From positions 1-27,576 of IMG/VR virus record IMGVR_UViG_3300030060_002287: 27,576 nt of DNA. The stretch is one strand, 5' to 3'. This stretch comes from a virus. The notes below the pieces were generated by a model that was not told the origin of the DNA, searched no databases, and saw only the letters and a program-made list of their open reading frames with translations. The translations under genes were made by a program, and so were the position numbers. Shown here piece after piece: positions 934 to 7,928 of this stretch; position 1 is the stretch's first letter; each line of letters starts with the position of its first letter.

Positions 934-1256
934 TGACTTCTTTACAAACACTTCTAGGCGACCTTAAGAGAGAGCAAGAAAACTTATTTAAGTTTACTAA
1001 GGCTCAAACAGAAAGAATCAATGGCCTACATCATGCCACTACAAATACTGCAAGTGACATACTTGCACCAGAGGTAATGGCTACTTTAAAGCTATCTTTA
1101 CATAAAGAAGGTCAAAGGCTTCTTGATGAAACAAGAGAAATTACTGCAAGAATTGACAATATTAATTGGCAAATACGAGCAGCAGTTGGTCTTTCAATGC
1201 AAGAGATGTTTGACGCAGTAAAGGTATCTAAACAAAGCATCACAGATGTAGTTTAG
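933..1256 (+). CDS. Hypothetical helical protein, 107 aa
   Basis: I chose the ATG at 933 because it forms a TAATG overlap with the preceding stop and has GGAG (921-924) 8 nt upstream. An upstream in-frame start at 897 would overlap the previous gene needlessly. The 107-residue product is rich in Lys, Glu, Gln and Leu and should be mostly helical, with a likely coiled coil around residues 5-30 and 55-85. No motif identifies it. It is the last gene of its unit, followed by the terminator at 1336-1366. Confidence 0.65.
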   Translation: MTSLQTLLGDLKREQENLFKFTKAQTERINGLHHATTNTASDILAPEVMATLKLSLHKEGQRLLDETREITARIDNINWQIRAAVGLSMQEMFDAVKVSKQSITDVV

Positions 1257-1335: not shown

Positions 1336-1366
1336 AAAAAAACCCTGTACAAAGGGTCTTTTTTTT
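1336..1366. terminator. Probably bidirectional intrinsic terminator
   Basis: ACCCT (1342-1346) pairs with AGGGT (1353-1357) around GTACAA. An A run (1336-1342) precedes it and a T run (1359-1366) follows it, so it can end transcripts from either side: the unit ending at 1256 on the plus strand and the rusA-like gene on the minus strand. Confidence 0.7.
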
Positions 1367-1376
1367 GTTTATTGTG

Positions 1377-1382
1377 TATTAT
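1377..1382 (+). promoter_or_regulatory. Candidate -10 box before the structured element
   Basis: TATTAT lies 7 bp upstream of A1389, the first base of the 8-bp closing stem of the structured element at 1389-1480. No -35 hexamer is evident. It could start a short RNA, or the plus-strand transcript that must cross the rusA region to reach the operon at 1901. Confidence 0.3.
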
Positions 1383-1388
1383 TAAAGT

Positions 1389-1480
1389 AATCAGGGAGCC
1401 TGATGCCCTTTGTAGAGTTGGGGCTGAAAGCTGTAATGGCAGGGCAGTCTCGGCGAGGTTGACTGATCTATCCCCTGATT
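1389..1480. ncRNA. Potential structured RNA element of unknown class
   Basis: AATCAGGG (1389-1396) is the exact reverse complement of CCCTGATT (1473-1480) and would close a 92-nt element. Inside, GCCC (1405-1408) can pair with GGGC (1421-1424), and CAGTC (1445-1449) with GACTG (1461-1465). An alternative pairing is GCCCT (1405-1409) with AGGGC (1441-1445). The segment is clearly richer in G and C than its surroundings and holds no reading frame. On the plus strand it starts at the predicted +1 of a TATTAT box. On the minus strand it is the 3' UTR of rusA, between stop and terminator. It matches no riboswitch, ribozyme or tRNA pattern I know. Confidence 0.45.
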
Positions 1481-1907
1481 AACTTTCTAATTCAACGACA
1501 AGTATATCTGCACCTACCTCTTCGCCTTCTTCGCAGTACCTTTTCTTTGCAGTAAGAATTGTTACCAATGAATCATCTACAAATGTTATTCCGCTGAGAG
1601 CATCTAAACTAGACCTTACAAGTTTATCTAAATCATTTCTTCGAATCGTAACATTTCTAGGTGACCCTGTACGGAGAGTGCCATTGGAGTAATAATGAGC
1701 CTTCGGACGCCTAAACCTAAAAGTGGCCTCCACATAGCAAGCACCCTTGATAGGTGGTTGTTTTATTTTACTAGCTTCATTCCTAACCAACTCTCGCCAT
1801 GGTTTTACTCTTTTACTTACTTCAATCATCCGACCCTTTCCAATATATTTTTTACTGCCTTGCGGTGCTGCTTCAAGACCATTTACAGAAAATTTAAAAG
1901 ATGTCAT
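1479..1907 (-). CDS. rusA: RusA-like Holliday junction resolvase
   Basis: The 142-residue protein matches the RusA endonuclease family, dimeric metal-dependent enzymes that cut four-way DNA junctions. It opens with the usual strand and PQGSKK loop (residues 15-20), then VEATFRFRRPKAH (59-71) and the acidic site NDLDKL (91-96) with D92 and D94, followed by VDDSLV (110-115) supplying the third Asp. The position equivalent to E. coli RusA Lys76 appears to be Arg98. The length is slightly above the 120 of E. coli RusA. It is the only minus-strand gene. The ATG at 1907 gives a normal N-terminus and overlaps the divergent start at 1901. It would resolve recombination or replication branches before packaging. 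Confidence 0.85.
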   Translation of the reverse strand: MTSFKFSVNGLEAAPQGSKKYIGKGRMIEVSKRVKPWRELVRNEASKIKQPPIKGACYVEATFRFRRPKAHYYSNGTLRTGSPRNVTIRRNDLDKLVRSSLDALSGITFVDDSLVTILTAKKRYCEEGEEVGADILVVELES

Positions 1908-2716
1908 TTAATCCACAAGGGTATCAATTTACCGCACTACCAACAAATCTTAGAGGGAAAATACAACCAAATCAACTTGCGGTGTTATGGGTAATACAGA
2001 GCTATGCCAACAAAGATGACCAACAATGCTGGCCATCATTAAAGACCATAGCCGACAATGCTGGTCTTAGTAAAAGAACAGTTCAAGATGTTGTAAATCA
2101 ATTAGTGTCTCTTGGTTGGTTACAAAGAACCCACCAAAAGGGAAACAACGGACAACAGGGTAGCAACTTATATAAAGTTACTGTTTGGCATCTTGCTAAT
2201 GTACCAGATCCCAGTGTTGATCGGCGTGGCAAATCCTGCACCCCTGCACCAGTTGCTACGACCCTATGGCAAGAGTTGCCATGCCCCATAGCAGCAGATG
2301 CCACCAAACTAGATACAATTAAACTAGATACAAAAGAACTAAATAAAAAAACTAATAAAAAAGATTATTCAGATGACTTTCTTGAGTTTTGGTTTTTATA
2401 TTTAGATATTAAAAAACGAGCTAGTGGCCAGAACAAACCAAAGGCTTGGGAAGAATGGAAAAGAGCTACAAAGAAAACAACACCAAATAATATAAAACTT
2501 TCTTTGCTTGCTGCCATTAAACAACAAAGAGCAACAGAAAGAGACGGTGGCTTTGCTGTCTGTTTTCCTAATTGCTTTAGATGGTTAAGAGATGAGTGCT
2601 ATGAAGGATATCTAAAAGATGAGAAAGATGCCCTGTACAAGAAAAGAAAAGGTGTTACAAACAAAGAAAGACCTTGGGAAAAAGATAAACCCCAAGATTC
2701 AGAATTACCTTTTTAA
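1901..2716 (+). CDS. HTH replication-initiator-like protein
   Basis: The 271-residue protein has a winged-helix domain at about 25-100: PNQLAVLWVIQSYANKDDQ, then SLKTIADNAGLSKRTVQDVV, then a wing with GNNGQQGSNLYKV. This is the pattern of phage O-like or DnaD-like replication proteins that recognise an origin or load the helicase. A Lys/Thr/Asn-rich linker (about 140-160) leads to a C-terminal domain with LEFWFLYLDIKKR and CFRWLRDECYEGYL, typical of the same group. The next gene starts 6 nt after its stop. No helicase or polymerase is in the window, so replication probably uses host enzymes or genes outside it. A transcriptional regulator role is the alternative. Confidence 0.65.
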   Translation: MSFNPQGYQFTALPTNLRGKIQPNQLAVLWVIQSYANKDDQQCWPSLKTIADNAGLSKRTVQDVVNQLVSLGWLQRTHQKGNNGQQGSNLYKVTVWHLANVPDPSVDRRGKSCTPAPVATTLWQELPCPIAADATKLDTIKLDTKELNKKTNKKDYSDDFLEFWFLYLDIKKRASGQNKPKAWEEWKRATKKTTPNNIKLSLLAAIKQQRATERDGGFAVCFPNCFRWLRDECYEGYLKDEKDALYKKRKGVTNKERPWEKDKPQDSELPF

Positions 2717-3274: not shown

Positions 3275-3764
3275 CGACCTAAAACCAGACCATAAAAACG
3301 CAAGAAAAAGAACAGATCGTTCTGCTTCTTTAATTCAAGAATCATTAGAAAGATATGGTGCAGCAAGATCAATAGTTATTGATGAAGATGGTCGTGTACT
3401 TGCTGGCAACGGAACTATAGAAGGTGCGAAAGCTGCTGGCTTAGAGAATGTTCGCGTTATAGAATCTGATGGCAAAGAGATTATTGCAATAAAACGAACT
3501 GGCCTTACTGAAGATCAAAAAGTTGGTCTTGCATTAGCTGACAACAGAACATCTGACTTGTCCGATTGGGATGCAAGTATGTTGCACCATTTATCAATGG
3601 AACATGAAATTGACCCATGGTTTGAACCAGAGGATTTAACAGAATTAATGGACGATAGAACAGATGCAGAAGCACCTGAGGATTTTAAAGATGTTGATGA
3701 AGATATAGAAACAGAACATAGATGTCCAAGTTGTGGTTATGAGTGGAGTGGAAAAGCAAAATAA
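3261..3764 (+). CDS. ParB/sulfiredoxin-fold protein with C-terminal zinc knuckle
   Basis: The 167-residue protein starts with the ParB N-terminal-like fold: KINDLKPDHKNARKR, a helix SASLIQESLERYG, then RSIVIDEDGRVLAGNGTIEG (36-55). The phosphate-binding box reads AGNGT rather than the GxRR of chromosome-partitioning ParB, as in phage ParB/Srx proteins found with DNA methylases. A middle helical part (82-135) is followed by an acidic linker and HRCPSCGYEWSG (153-164), a two-cysteine knuckle that would need a partner for a full zinc site. It opens a block of four overlapping or abutting genes with an ATP pyrophosphatase, a C5 methylase and a CmoA homologue. A DNA-recognition, nuclease or nucleotide-using subunit of that system is inferred. 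Confidence 0.75.
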   Translation: MTKINDLKPDHKNARKRTDRSASLIQESLERYGAARSIVIDEDGRVLAGNGTIEGAKAAGLENVRVIESDGKEIIAIKRTGLTEDQKVGLALADNRTSDLSDWDASMLHHLSMEHEIDPWFEPEDLTELMDDRTDAEAPEDFKDVDEDIETEHRCPSCGYEWSGKAK

Positions 3765-4563
3765 TATAAGAGATATTTTTGAACATTTTTTGCAGAATCT
3801 TCCAGACGGTTTTGTTGTAGCAACCTCTGGGGGTATTTCTTCTGCTGCTTTACTTGCATCTGCTATTGCTGTAAATAAAAGACCTAAAGTTATTTCTTTT
3901 ACATTTGATGATTTTGAATCAACAGATTTTATACTTGCCAAAGCAATGGCACATTATTTTAATGTTCCTTTCTTTCCTGTATATTTACCATCCGATAAAA
4001 ATATAATTAATAATTCTGTTTCTACACTTATACATAAATACAAACTAAGAAAAAAGGCTCGTATTGAATGTTCTTTTCCTTTTTTATATGTAGCAGAAAC
4101 CTTGAAATCCATTGGTATCACTACACTTGTAACAGGTCTTTGTGATGATGGTCATTTTGGTTTATCCAAAAAAGCAATGATACATTACAAGCATACGCAA
4201 GAGAAGTTTGACCAGTTTAGACATGAATATTTTGCAGACCCCGATGCTGCGGGTCGTAAAGGCATACATAAAATCTGTCAAGACTTTAATGTTGATATTT
4301 TTAATCCATATTGCCACCCAACTGTTTTTAAATTATTTATTGGTAAATCTTGGGATGAACTAAATAGACCAAAACAAAAATATGCTATTCGTAAACACTT
4401 TCCAGAGTTAGAACAATTTAAACTTCCTAACCACACTAATTTACAACTGGGTGATAGCAAAATTGCACAAAGAGTAGGAAATGCGGTAATTTCTAAGTAT
4501 AAACCTAATGCAAAATCACCAGTTGGTATCTATAACAGAATCGCAAAAGGCATCTATGCCTAA
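3739..4563 (+). CDS. Asparagine-synthetase-type ATP pyrophosphatase (PP-loop), stand-alone
   Basis: The 274-residue product resembles the synthetase domain of AsnB without the glutaminase domain. It has a PP-loop TSGGISSAALLA (29-40), a second strand VISFTFDD, then TGLCDDGHFG, which corresponds to the SGEGxDExFGG loop, and a C-terminal part with FNPYCHPTVF and KQKYAIRKHFPEL, matching the PFLDxxxxxF and KxxLR elements of the family. The family activates a carboxylate as an acyl-adenylate and joins it to ammonia or an amine. The canonical SGGxDS has Ser in place of Asp here. The ATG at 3739 overlaps the ParB-like gene by 26 nt; GTG 3733 or GTG 3748 are alternatives. With no glutaminase it would use free ammonia, another amine or a partner. 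The substrate may be modified DNA (inference). Confidence 0.7.
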   Translation: MSGVEKQNNIRDIFEHFLQNLPDGFVVATSGGISSAALLASAIAVNKRPKVISFTFDDFESTDFILAKAMAHYFNVPFFPVYLPSDKNIINNSVSTLIHKYKLRKKARIECSFPFLYVAETLKSIGITTLVTGLCDDGHFGLSKKAMIHYKHTQEKFDQFRHEYFADPDAAGRKGIHKICQDFNVDIFNPYCHPTVFKLFIGKSWDELNRPKQKYAIRKHFPELEQFKLPNHTNLQLGDSKIAQRVGNAVISKYKPNAKSPVGIYNRIAKGIYA

Positions 4564-5614: not shown

Positions 5615-6268
5615 ATGGATATACCTACAAACTGGACTTTTGAAACCTCTGGTGTTGCACAAGGTTTTGATCGTCATGTAAGAGAACAGTTGCCTTGGTA
5701 TGACTTAGCAACAAACGCAATACTTCATGTGGCGAGACACTATATTTCAGAGAATGGTCTTGTTTATGATTTCGGTGCATCTACTGGCAATATTGGTAGA
5801 GCATTAGAACCAATACTGACAAAAAGAAAAGCACACTTAATAGGCATAGAACCTAGTGAAGAAATGATAAAACTTTATAAGGCACCGGGCGACGTCATAT
5901 GCAGCAAAGCAGAAACATTTATTGCAAAAGATTTTGATTTATCTGTTTTATTTTTATGTTTAATGTTTGTTCCACCAGCCAAAAGATTTAATCTTATGCT
6001 AAGACTAAGGGAGAAATGTAAACCCGGAGGGGCAATCATTGTCTTTGACAAGTTAGAACCAATTGGTGGCTACGCTTCAACTGTTTTCTATCGTCTTACA
6101 CTTGCTGGTAAAAAAGCATCTGGTACAAACTCAGATGAGATAATTGAAAAAGAATTATCTTTGTCAGGTGTACAAAGACCTATTACAGAAGATCAACTTG
6201 CTGGCGATTTCATAAATTGGTTTAAATTTGGCGATTTCTCAGGATACCTTATAGAAAAACCAGCATAA
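5615..6268 (+). CDS. CmoA-like class I SAM-dependent enzyme (candidate carboxy-SAM synthase)
   Basis: The 217-residue protein aligns along its length with CmoA, which converts SAM and prephenate to carboxy-SAM for tRNA wobble-uridine modification. Shared parts are the N-terminal VAxxFxxxVxxxxPxY (14-29), the SAM site VYDFGASTGN (50-59) where CmoA has VYDLGCSLG, GIEPSEEM, KPGGAIIVFDK (136-146), the EIIEK helix, and the C-terminal WFKFGDFSGYLIEK (202-215) where CmoA has WFQCFNFGSLVALK. By hand alignment CmoA Arg199, which binds the carboxylate, falls on Glu180, so the product could differ. Prephenate would come from the host. It starts directly after the methyltransferase stop and overlaps terS. 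The phage has no CmoB, so tRNA is not the obvious target. An ordinary methyltransferase is the alternative. Confidence 0.75.
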   Translation: MDIPTNWTFETSGVAQGFDRHVREQLPWYDLATNAILHVARHYISENGLVYDFGASTGNIGRALEPILTKRKAHLIGIEPSEEMIKLYKAPGDVICSKAETFIAKDFDLSVLFLCLMFVPPAKRFNLMLRLREKCKPGGAIIVFDKLEPIGGYASTVFYRLTLAGKKASGTNSDEIIEKELSLSGVQRPITEDQLAGDFINWFKFGDFSGYLIEKPA

Positions 6269-6591
6269 TGGCAGCTTCACAAACAACACAAGCAGAAACA
6301 GAGATGCGTATTGCAAGATGCGCAAGAATTATTGCCAATGGTGGTAGAAGGTCTGATTGTATTCAATACGCTGCAACAAATTGGGGGGTCAGTAAGAGGA
6401 CTGTTGATAATTATTTAAAAGAAGCAAGGGCACAACTACGTGCAGATTGGGACATAGAAAGACCACAAATGATTGCTGATTTATTAAGTCAGTGCAGTAC
6501 TTTACACCTAGAGGCAAGACGTAATGGACAACTTAATATTGCTCTTGGGTGTATCAATACAGCAGCTAAGTTAGCTGACCTCTGCTCATGA
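6268..6591 (+). CDS. terS: Terminase small subunit
   Basis: A 107-residue protein with a helix-turn-helix at about 25-50, containing NWGVSKRTVDNYLKEAR, followed by helices that would form the oligomerisation region. Small terminases bind the packaging site and present DNA to the large subunit. It overlaps the preceding gene (TAATG) and the large terminase (ATGA at 6588), which fixes both starts. Length and position are typical. Confidence 0.8.
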   Translation: MAASQTTQAETEMRIARCARIIANGGRRSDCIQYAATNWGVSKRTVDNYLKEARAQLRADWDIERPQMIADLLSQCSTLHLEARRNGQLNIALGCINTAAKLADLCS

Positions 6592-7928
6592 GTATTCTTG
6601 AAACAGTTAAAAAAGGCCATGTATTATTTGGTGATGGCTTATTTGATATACCCTCTACAAAGGCAGTACAGGATAAAATAAGATCTAATTTATTGCCGCA
6701 TCAAGAAAAGTTTTGCGCAGATACAGAACATAGAAAATTAGCTTTAGTCTGTGGCTTTGGTGCTGGTAAAACATATGCGCTGGTAAGTAAATCAATACTG
6801 TTGGCATCTATGAATGTTGGTCACATCTCAGCAATCTTTGAACCAACTGCACCTATGCTTCGGGATATTTTAATGAGAACTATGAATGACTTACTTGATG
6901 AATGGCAGATACCATATACATTTAGAGCTTCACCACTTCCGGAATATCAACTGCAATTTAAAGAAGGTATGCACACTATCTTGCTGCGTACAATTTTGAC
7001 TTATCAAAGATTGCGTGGTCAAAACTTATGTGCTGTTGGTTTTGATGAAGCAGATACCGTAGCAAAACGGGATGCCGAACAAGCAATGAACATGGCACTT
7101 GCTAGACTTAGGTCAGGTAATGTTCAACAGTTTTACGCTACTACAACACCAGAAGGTCATTCATGGGCGTTTGATACCTTCGAAAAAAACGCCAAAGAAG
7201 ATACTCGGTTGATAAAAGCTAAAACATCAGATAATCCCTACCTACCAGAGGGATTCATTGATTCGTTACTCGAAAACTACCCACCACAGCTTATACAGGC
7301 TTACCTTAACGGAAACTTCTGCAACTTAACCACAGGGCAAGTCTATGACAAGTTTGATCGCAAAATTCATGTTCTACAGAATAATCCATATGTTGATGAT
7401 AATGAACCTTTACGAATTGGAATTGACTTTAACATTGGAAACATGAATGCAGTGATTGGTGTGGCAGTAGGAAATAAATTTATGGTTATAGATGAAATCG
7501 CAAAAAGTCACGACACCGACAGCATTGCAAAGGAGATCAAAGGTAGATACCCTTTCAATAAAATTTATATCTATCCTGATGCGTCAGGTGGAAACAGAAG
7601 TACAAATGCTACAAAGACCGACATCCAAATATTAGAAAGTTATGGTTTTGTTAATCAGTCAGCACTATCTAATCCCCCTGTAAGAGATAGGGTTAACTCT
7701 GTACAAGGATTGCTCTTAAATGGAAAAGGTGAAACAAGATTAATGGTTTCTAAAAAAGCTGTGAAATTAATTGAATGTTTAGAATTACAAAGTTATAACG
7801 AAAGAGGTGAACCAGACAAAGATGCAGGGTACGATCATATGAATGATGCGCTCGGTTATATAACTTGGCGGTTGTTCAATCCCTTACATATGGGTGCTGG
7901 TCGTAAAACTGGTATTAGGCTTTATTAG
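6588..7928 (+). CDS. terL: Terminase large subunit
   Basis: The 446-residue packaging motor has an ATPase domain with Walker A CGFGAGKTYAL (55-65), Walker B CAVGFDEAD (148-156) and the coupling segment YATTTPEG (183-190). The RNase H-like nuclease domain has acidic residues at IGIDFN (D280), YPDASG (D331) and DHMNDALGY (D416, D420). It cuts concatemeric DNA and pumps it into the procapsid through the portal. All key residues look intact. It starts inside the stop of terS and is followed by a 40-nt gap before the portal gene. Confidence 0.93.
   Translation: MSILETVKKGHVLFGDGLFDIPSTKAVQDKIRSNLLPHQEKFCADTEHRKLALVCGFGAGKTYALVSKSILLASMNVGHISAIFEPTAPMLRDILMRTMNDLLDEWQIPYTFRASPLPEYQLQFKEGMHTILLRTILTYQRLRGQNLCAVGFDEADTVAKRDAEQAMNMALARLRSGNVQQFYATTTPEGHSWAFDTFEKNAKEDTRLIKAKTSDNPYLPEGFIDSLLENYPPQLIQAYLNGNFCNLTTGQVYDKFDRKIHVLQNNPYVDDNEPLRIGIDFNIGNMNAVIGVAVGNKFMVIDEIAKSHDTDSIAKEIKGRYPFNKIYIYPDASGGNRSTNATKTDIQILESYGFVNQSALSNPPVRDRVNSVQGLLLNGKGETRLMVSKKAVKLIECLELQSYNERGEPDKDAGYDHMNDALGYITWRLFNPLHMGAGRKTGIRLY

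Follow-up and report, generated by a model that had tools for sequence, protein, structure and literature searches.

The DNA analysed here, called the window, is the whole 27,576-nt stretch (positions 1 to 27,576) of the virus record IMGVR_UViG_3300030060_002287 in IMG/VR. Close to its left end a 92-nt element lies between a terminator and a convergent rusA gene, beyond which the plus strand carries genes for replication and packaging, the latter beginning within 6268 to 7928 on the strand of the element (Table 1). A further plus-strand gene (3733-4560) is asparagine-synthase-like (PF00733, 22.1 bits, cut-off 21) and is flanked by a ParB-like gene and, judged by eye, a putative cytosine methyltransferase gene. 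Several features that a preliminary description had read from this stretch are indeed there: the exact 8-bp closing stem of the element, AATCAGGG against CCCTGATT, a TATTAT box separated from it by six bases, the terminator on the left (1342-1357) with minus-strand rusA on the right, and a raised local GC content (0.53 in the element versus 0.33 and 0.38 in the 200-nt flanks). A promoter consensus scan predicted no promoter at 1377-1382. The terminator region (1330-1366) has T-runs on both strands, so that the rusA transcript may include the antisense of the entire element before it terminates.

Table 1. Positions of the features in the window and, in the last three rows, in three other loci (R1, covariance model of the family)
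Feature	Position	Strand	Basis or remark
Intrinsic terminator, T-runs on both strands	1342-1366		Predicted from the sequence of both strands; would end upstream plus-strand genes and possibly the rusA transcript
TATTAT, -10-like box	1377-1382	+	Would make the transcript start coincide with or adjoin the first P1 base
Structured RNA element (P1 to P1')	1389-1480	+	Member of a new family; R1 match and covariation
P1	1389-1396 / 1473-1480	+	Double changes at 4 of 7 modelled pairs (40 sequences), 5 of 7 (larger alignment)
P1b	1399-1401 / 1442-1444	+	Paired in 40 of 40; U.G, C-G or U-A at one pair only
GAU side of the tandem G.A, A.G, U.U motif	1402-1404	+	Faces 1425-1427
P2	1405-1409 / 1420-1424	+	Double changes at 4 of 5 pairs
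UGA side of the tandem G.A motif	1425-1427	+	Faces 1402-1404
P3	1430-1432 / 1438-1440	+	Second pair CG 32, UA 7, UG 1 (40 sequences)
P4	1445-1448 / 1462-1465	+	Double changes at 4 of 4 pairs
Unpaired conserved linker AUCUAU, P4 to P1'	1466-1471	+	Distinct rows
rusA, Holliday junction resolvase, convergent	1479-1907	-	phrog_140 1.7e-24, PF05866
Replication initiation protein, first long plus-strand gene past the element	1901-2716	+	phrog_270 1.2e-33
Candidate small terminase gene	6268-6591	+	Named by position; phrog_34910, no stated function
Large terminase	6588-7928	+	phrog_2 2.9e-45
Second candidate RNA, L202	5021-5113		Before convergent rusA
Second candidate RNA, L203	5167-5261		Before convergent rusA
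Second candidate RNA, L206	5287-5379		Before convergent rusA

Thermodynamic folding against shuffled sequences gave z values of -1.35 for the plus strand (17 of 200 shuffles fold as well) and -1.48 for the minus strand (20 of 200 as good), and the window holds 64 8-mers with an exact reverse complement 40-100 nt downstream. With such z values, and chance pairs of 8-mers so common, the folding of a single sequence is uninformative alone, and the comparison of both strands with shuffled controls, which had been proposed as a check, does not by itself set the element above chance.

Relatives of the element were the main source of evidence. A blastn search with the window copy found a 47-nt piece in the Prochlorococcus phages P-HS2 and MED4-184, again adjoining rusA, and searching with the copy from P-HS2 brought in MED4-117 as well; the same element is present in close rusA relatives from IMG/VR. 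Pattern scans of IMG/VR returned 32 stretches, at least 119 in another scan and 36 with a variant core. By pattern, at least 118 distinct members of the family occur among IMG/VR virus contigs and the three cultured phages. The covariance model R1 was built from 40 family members, which it matches by construction; the window is one of them (positions 1386-1482, 77.1 bits, E 1e-13). R1 is strong in 94 of 100 sources, the other six being five chance pattern matches and L119. It matches 29 of 40 in a second set (all but L072 and ten distant rusA loci) and all 79 loci of a third. There is one copy per contig, with the sole exception of a weak second R1 hit in L147 (18.9 bits). The context counts given below, such as the 118 copies, rest on the sequence pattern and not on R1; L072, L096, L099, L119, L122, L134 and L160 were dropped as chance pattern matches before context and strand were counted, among them L119 with an R1 score of 27.6 bits (E 0.005). 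The strict pattern found no bacterial copy in genome contigs, and the lone stretch there, L072 (Omnitrophota), is unrecognised by R1. The L101 element had no blastn match in the phages collection.

Rfam 15 yielded no match in the window at gathering scores and none up to E 5 on the plus strand of the element (1250-1600). The best result for L047 was sRNA-Xcc1 at 21.3 bits, against a gathering score of 53 bits, and across 13 loci the only match was a group I intron elsewhere in L056, a contig that carries a copy of the element (962-1204, minus strand, 67.2 bits). The element and its relatives thus resemble no known class, as had been suspected, and our search of titles and abstracts in the open-access literature found no published description of it. 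The element belongs to a widespread, conserved family of structured cyanophage RNAs without a counterpart in Rfam 15.

Comparative analysis gave a fold of five helices, P1, P1b, P2, P3 and P4. In the 40-sequence alignment 97.6% of 880 cells are paired, versus 84.3% in shuffled alignments; sliding the partners by 1-3 columns lowers the share to 34-55%. Cells changed on both sides number 118 (36.5 shuffled), and the covariation score of 0.441 (0.188 shuffled) was reached by none of 500 shuffles. Among 65 distinct rows, in an alignment fitted to the model and so biased toward the structure, 97.0% are paired, with 238 double changes versus 69.4 and a covariation score of 0.492 versus 0.214. The covariance comparison in related phages that had been proposed for this locus was thus carried out, and covariation was found; it bears out the claim of a real RNA, and the objection from absent covariation falls away. 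We regard it as practically certain that 1389-1480 is a genuine structured RNA.

The alignment started from 48 representatives, of which L102, L158, L060, L091, L001 and L045 (six) were left out before alignment; dropping L108, L040 and L041, three of 43 references, gave the 40 sequences. The reasons for these omissions were long inserts, duplication or shortening the alignment. L045, L108 and L040 were readmitted in the 79-locus set, L102, L158, L091 and L041 match R1, and L060 is outside the set searched with R1.

Judged by this covariation, P1, P2 and P4 are firm, and sequence comparison identifies P2 and P4 as the two internal hairpins recognised earlier. P3 and P1b are the helices least supported by covariation: P1b is nearly invariant and has the weakest support, whereas P3 has one covarying pair and a third pair that is not formed in 11 of 40 sequences. 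They replaced the RNAalifold consensus pairing of columns 13-14/59-60 and 96-98/143-145, because columns 60-93 covary (CG 32, UA 7, UG 1) and columns 13-60 show only GC and GU. The minimum-energy fold of the window copy is at -35.0, versus -26.6 when constrained to the comparative fold, the difference being in the central part. Loops and inserts vary freely in length, with 94-144 nt over the model, and most relatives have a longer P3 loop, which can form an extra hairpin. In L101, L080, L113 and their relatives the P2 loop often repeats the P1 3' strand as UCCCC, and this repeat could pair with the GGGGA of P1 in an alternative fold or between molecules; the window copy lacks it.

The same alignments point to the strand. 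In the family alignment, read on the plus strand, there are 91 G-U cells versus 12 A-C cells, and 54 versus 1 after excluding columns 16-96 (G-U) and 61-92 (A-C). Since G-U is kept over A-C, the functional RNA strand is, on this comparison, the plus strand, which does not favour the earlier suggestion of a rusA 3' UTR element; moreover, no convergent rusA directly follows in 78 of 118 distinct copies.

At the centre of the fold a tandem G.A motif sits between P1b and P2 and forms part of a three-way junction; on the 3' side it is followed by AA, P3 and one invariant A. G.A and A.G are present in all 65 distinct rows, with U.U (57) or C.U (8) at the third position. The AUCUAU linker is similarly conserved (first A 65/65, second A 63/65, last T 63/65 distinct rows). 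In a box C/D kink-turn, UGAUG...CUGA forms tandem G.A, A.G and U.U beside a stem, together with a three-base bulge and a canonical C-stem. The element has the non-canonical side of this arrangement (G.A and A.G 65/65, U.U 57/65), but on the C-stem side P1b follows the G.A directly and P3 is inserted on the opposite strand, a junction at most. A likeness to the hammerhead ribozyme is seen in CUGAUG and GAAA around a three-way junction. The hammerhead has CUGANGA between stems I and II, GAAA between II and III, and cleavage after UH. Membership in that class was rejected, as the connectivity of the core differs: the column pairs 20-53 and 21-52 are each present in 40 of 40 sequences, and C then A precede the P1b 3' strand in 65 of 65 rows.

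We next consider the surroundings of the copies. Packaging genes (relatives of terS, terL or portal) are in reach in 80 of the 118 distinct copies and lie downstream on the same strand in 79 of these 80, the lone exception being the L094 group, with packaging genes on the other strand. The distance to them, in a smaller set, is 194 nt to about 5.4 kb. Neighbouring genes vary by lineage (rusA/rep, parB-like, terS, portal), with convergent rusA directly after the element in 40 of 118 copies. L123 has the same arrangement with a terminase of GpA type versus the Terminase_6 type of the window, a phrog_4652 gene follows the element in L088 of the L094/L088 group, and exonuclease VIII does so in L163. 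Of 107 copies, 72 have the first plus-strand start codon (frame of at least 45 codons) no more than 100 nt away and 104 no more than 500 nt away. The window and P-HS2 clades have an opposite-strand gene next, and their next long plus-strand gene starts ~420 nt away. Some lineages depart from the common arrangement: in L262/L288/L290 the plus-strand run behind the element is short and made up of small genes, and L105, L143 and L089 show no packaging gene downstream within the fetched DNA, L105 having a small-terminase gene upstream. The short operon that the element heads in L290 encodes, at +418 to +616 from the element, a small protein with an NrdR-like zinc ribbon (PF22811). Overall, the element heads or sits between co-directional genes, nearly always upstream of packaging genes.

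Upstream, 76 of 113 copies have a plus-strand open frame that ends -1 to 14 nt ahead of P1, mostly at 5 or 6. The upstream genes differ despite this narrow spacing; a terminating ribosome would keep P1 open, a possible coupling. A terminator precedes the element in 15 of 118 distinct copies. A -10-like hexamer (at least 5 of 6) is near P1 in 17 of 20 terminator-bearing upstream regions, many of which are close relatives (shuffles, 15%), and in 19 of 107 regions without a terminator. The order in the window clade is terminator, -10 box, element. Downstream, none of 116 copies has a terminator within 200 nt (shuffled, 2 of 348).

Related phages without the element were also examined. The isolates S-H1 and KBS-S-2A, which have related large terminases, show no match, and their early genes are divergent from the late genes. 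Among 80 terminase relatives chosen irrespective of the element, many with little upstream DNA, 10 match. Upstream DNA reaches at least 5.8 kb in 23 TerL relatives; of these, four have the element, three (L202, L203, L206) have another RNA-like sequence and 16 have neither; in 13 of these 16, minus-strand early genes abut plus-strand late genes, as judged by eye. The other sequence, a second candidate RNA (Table 1), also occurs in six further sequences, with a -10-like TATTCT ahead in most. It is closed by GUCGAA/UUCGAC (or UUCGGC) and has inner hairpins and conserved sequence, with folding z values of -1.39, -0.52 and -2.91 in L202, L203 and L206. It has no Rfam match and is no recognisable relative of the element (best R1 score 2.7 bits). 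Lying where the element would otherwise be, it hints at a functional replacement.

Several known RNAs provide points of comparison. Put RNAs of the HK022 type suppress pausing and termination via the zinc-binding domain of beta', the EAR (epsC) element of Bacillales is a structured RNA within an operon that promotes read-through, and the phi29-type packaging RNA is a free RNA bound to the portal ring. PMC9378689 describes put RNAs as molecules of about 70 nt that form two stem-loops close to where early transcripts begin; they need no phage protein to act on the elongation complex, and their effect persists for at least 10 kb. The element would resemble putL and putR, as described there, as a phage RNA in cis near the head of a predicted long transcript with no dedicated phage protein. 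It lies upstream of same-strand packaging genes in 79 of 80 copies, but most copies are inside a run of plus-strand genes, and the L094 group and the L262 lineage are exceptions. Its shape differs, with about 92-150 nt (94-144 nt over the model), five helices including a closing helix, two three-way junctions and tandem G.A in place of two stem-loops. The EAR element, mentioned as the epsC motif in PMC2864571, has another host group and other genes, and no Rfam match is present on the plus strand of the window element. The marine cyanophage RNAs manA, wcaG and PhotoRC-II, each with an Rfam accession, adjoin metabolic, exopolysaccharide or psbA genes according to the same source, unlike the element, and their Rfam families match neither the element nor its relatives. 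To the phi29-type packaging RNA, the likeness is proximity to packaging genes only.

The preliminary description had left three options, a free small RNA, a leader of the plus-strand operon crossing rusA, or a rusA 3' UTR element. The operon leader is best supported; the other two are not favoured, the free small RNA because of the missing terminator within 200 nt downstream in 116 copies. As mechanism we favour, at a probability of roughly one in three, an operon-head leader RNA that would act on the elongating polymerase like HK022 put. In the window clade, transcription would restart at the -10 box beyond the terminator and the first bases of the RNA would pair into P1. The folded RNA would stay in the nascent transcript while the polymerase proceeds through rusA, in antisense, into the replication, terminase and structural genes; by contacting the elongation complex it may confer resistance to pausing and termination over the remaining operon, as a put or EAR element does, through a different fold. 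Since no terminator follows within 200 nt, transcripts should read on past the element, and the varied neighbour genes argue against a gene-specific switch. Three points together make the put-like reading the best fit: the RNA would stay in a transcript that reads through, the genes next to it vary, and nothing like a switching platform for a single gene can be seen.

In favour of the put-like leader we count the covariation in 40 and 65 sequences, the plus strand, the position upstream of packaging genes, the lack of the element in S-H1 and KBS-S-2A, and the different RNA-like sequence in L202, L203 and L206. Against it count the short-operon L262/L288/L290 lineage, the L094 group, L105, L143 and L089, the different shape of put, and the 16 of 23 TerL relatives with neither RNA. 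In addition, no strong intrinsic plus-strand terminator was found downstream of the element in the window, so there is no obvious terminator to overcome.

The nearest rival, which we consider unlikely but closest in merit, is a 5'-end stabiliser or processing element, in which a closed P1 at or near the 5' end would shield the message from decay of the RNase E type. The -10 box of the window clade would make transcripts begin on the first P1 base, a cut in the 76 of 113 copies that begin next to a stop codon would leave a structured 5' end, and PMC9692554 describes a cyanophage factor inducing RNase E of the host; a plain hairpin would suffice for protection, however, and the invariant G.A motif together with the linkers and the junction points to binding or catalysis. 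Somewhat less probable is a noncoding RNA acting in trans (a regulator, a decoy, or a structural or packaging RNA) that would be excised from the operon transcript. Both ends close in P1, the neighbours vary, the copy is single apart from the weak hit in L147 and often near packaging genes, all of which would suit such an RNA, but its 3' end would need processing with no terminator following in 116 copies, and a free RNA would not need the position and strand relative to the late genes that are kept.

Catalysis itself, as a self-cleaving ribozyme that would separate early from late transcripts, is improbable: the compact junction, the near-invariant unpaired bases and the hammerhead-like CUGAUG...GAAA speak for it, yet the G of CUGAUG pairs with C in P2 (40/40), the base after it is paired too, the junction has no U paired to A beside the cleaved base, and no Rfam ribozyme matches. 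We give equally little weight to a ligand-sensing riboswitch for the downstream gene. The complex conserved junction and the nearby start codons (within 100 nt in 72 of 107) would be expected of one, but the downstream genes differ, no expression platform was seen among the copies, and the window and P-HS2 clades have the opposite-strand gene next; a transcription-attenuation platform was rejected, with a terminator overlapping or after the aptamer in none of 116 copies within 200 nt. Least probable by far is conservation driven by coding or by a DNA-level site (replication origin, packaging or attachment). Coding is disfavoured by the freely varying lengths of loops and inserts. In the window clade the element does adjoin rusA and the replication initiator, but most relatives have no adjacent replication gene and G-U pairs are kept on one strand only. 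PMC7852597 gives P-HS2 490-bp terminal repeats, suggesting T7-like packaging; the P-HS2 element at 13.8 kb is far from these repeats, on account of which the idea of a packaging end was dropped.

Returning to the put-like leader, a wider form of it is possible but doubtful: that an RNA class found only in phages alone reprograms the cyanobacterial polymerase at the head of the late operon and may be replaced by at least one unrelated RNA, as in L202, L203 and L206.

The sea abounds in phages that infect Prochlorococcus and Synechococcus, and to our knowledge little is known of how early and late expression is ordered in cyanobacterial siphophages. A single-copy, strongly conserved RNA near the early/late boundary, present in cultured MED4 phages, makes this question directly testable. 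If the element acts on RNA polymerase, control of elongation by RNA only would extend past the lambdoid and Bacillales cases.
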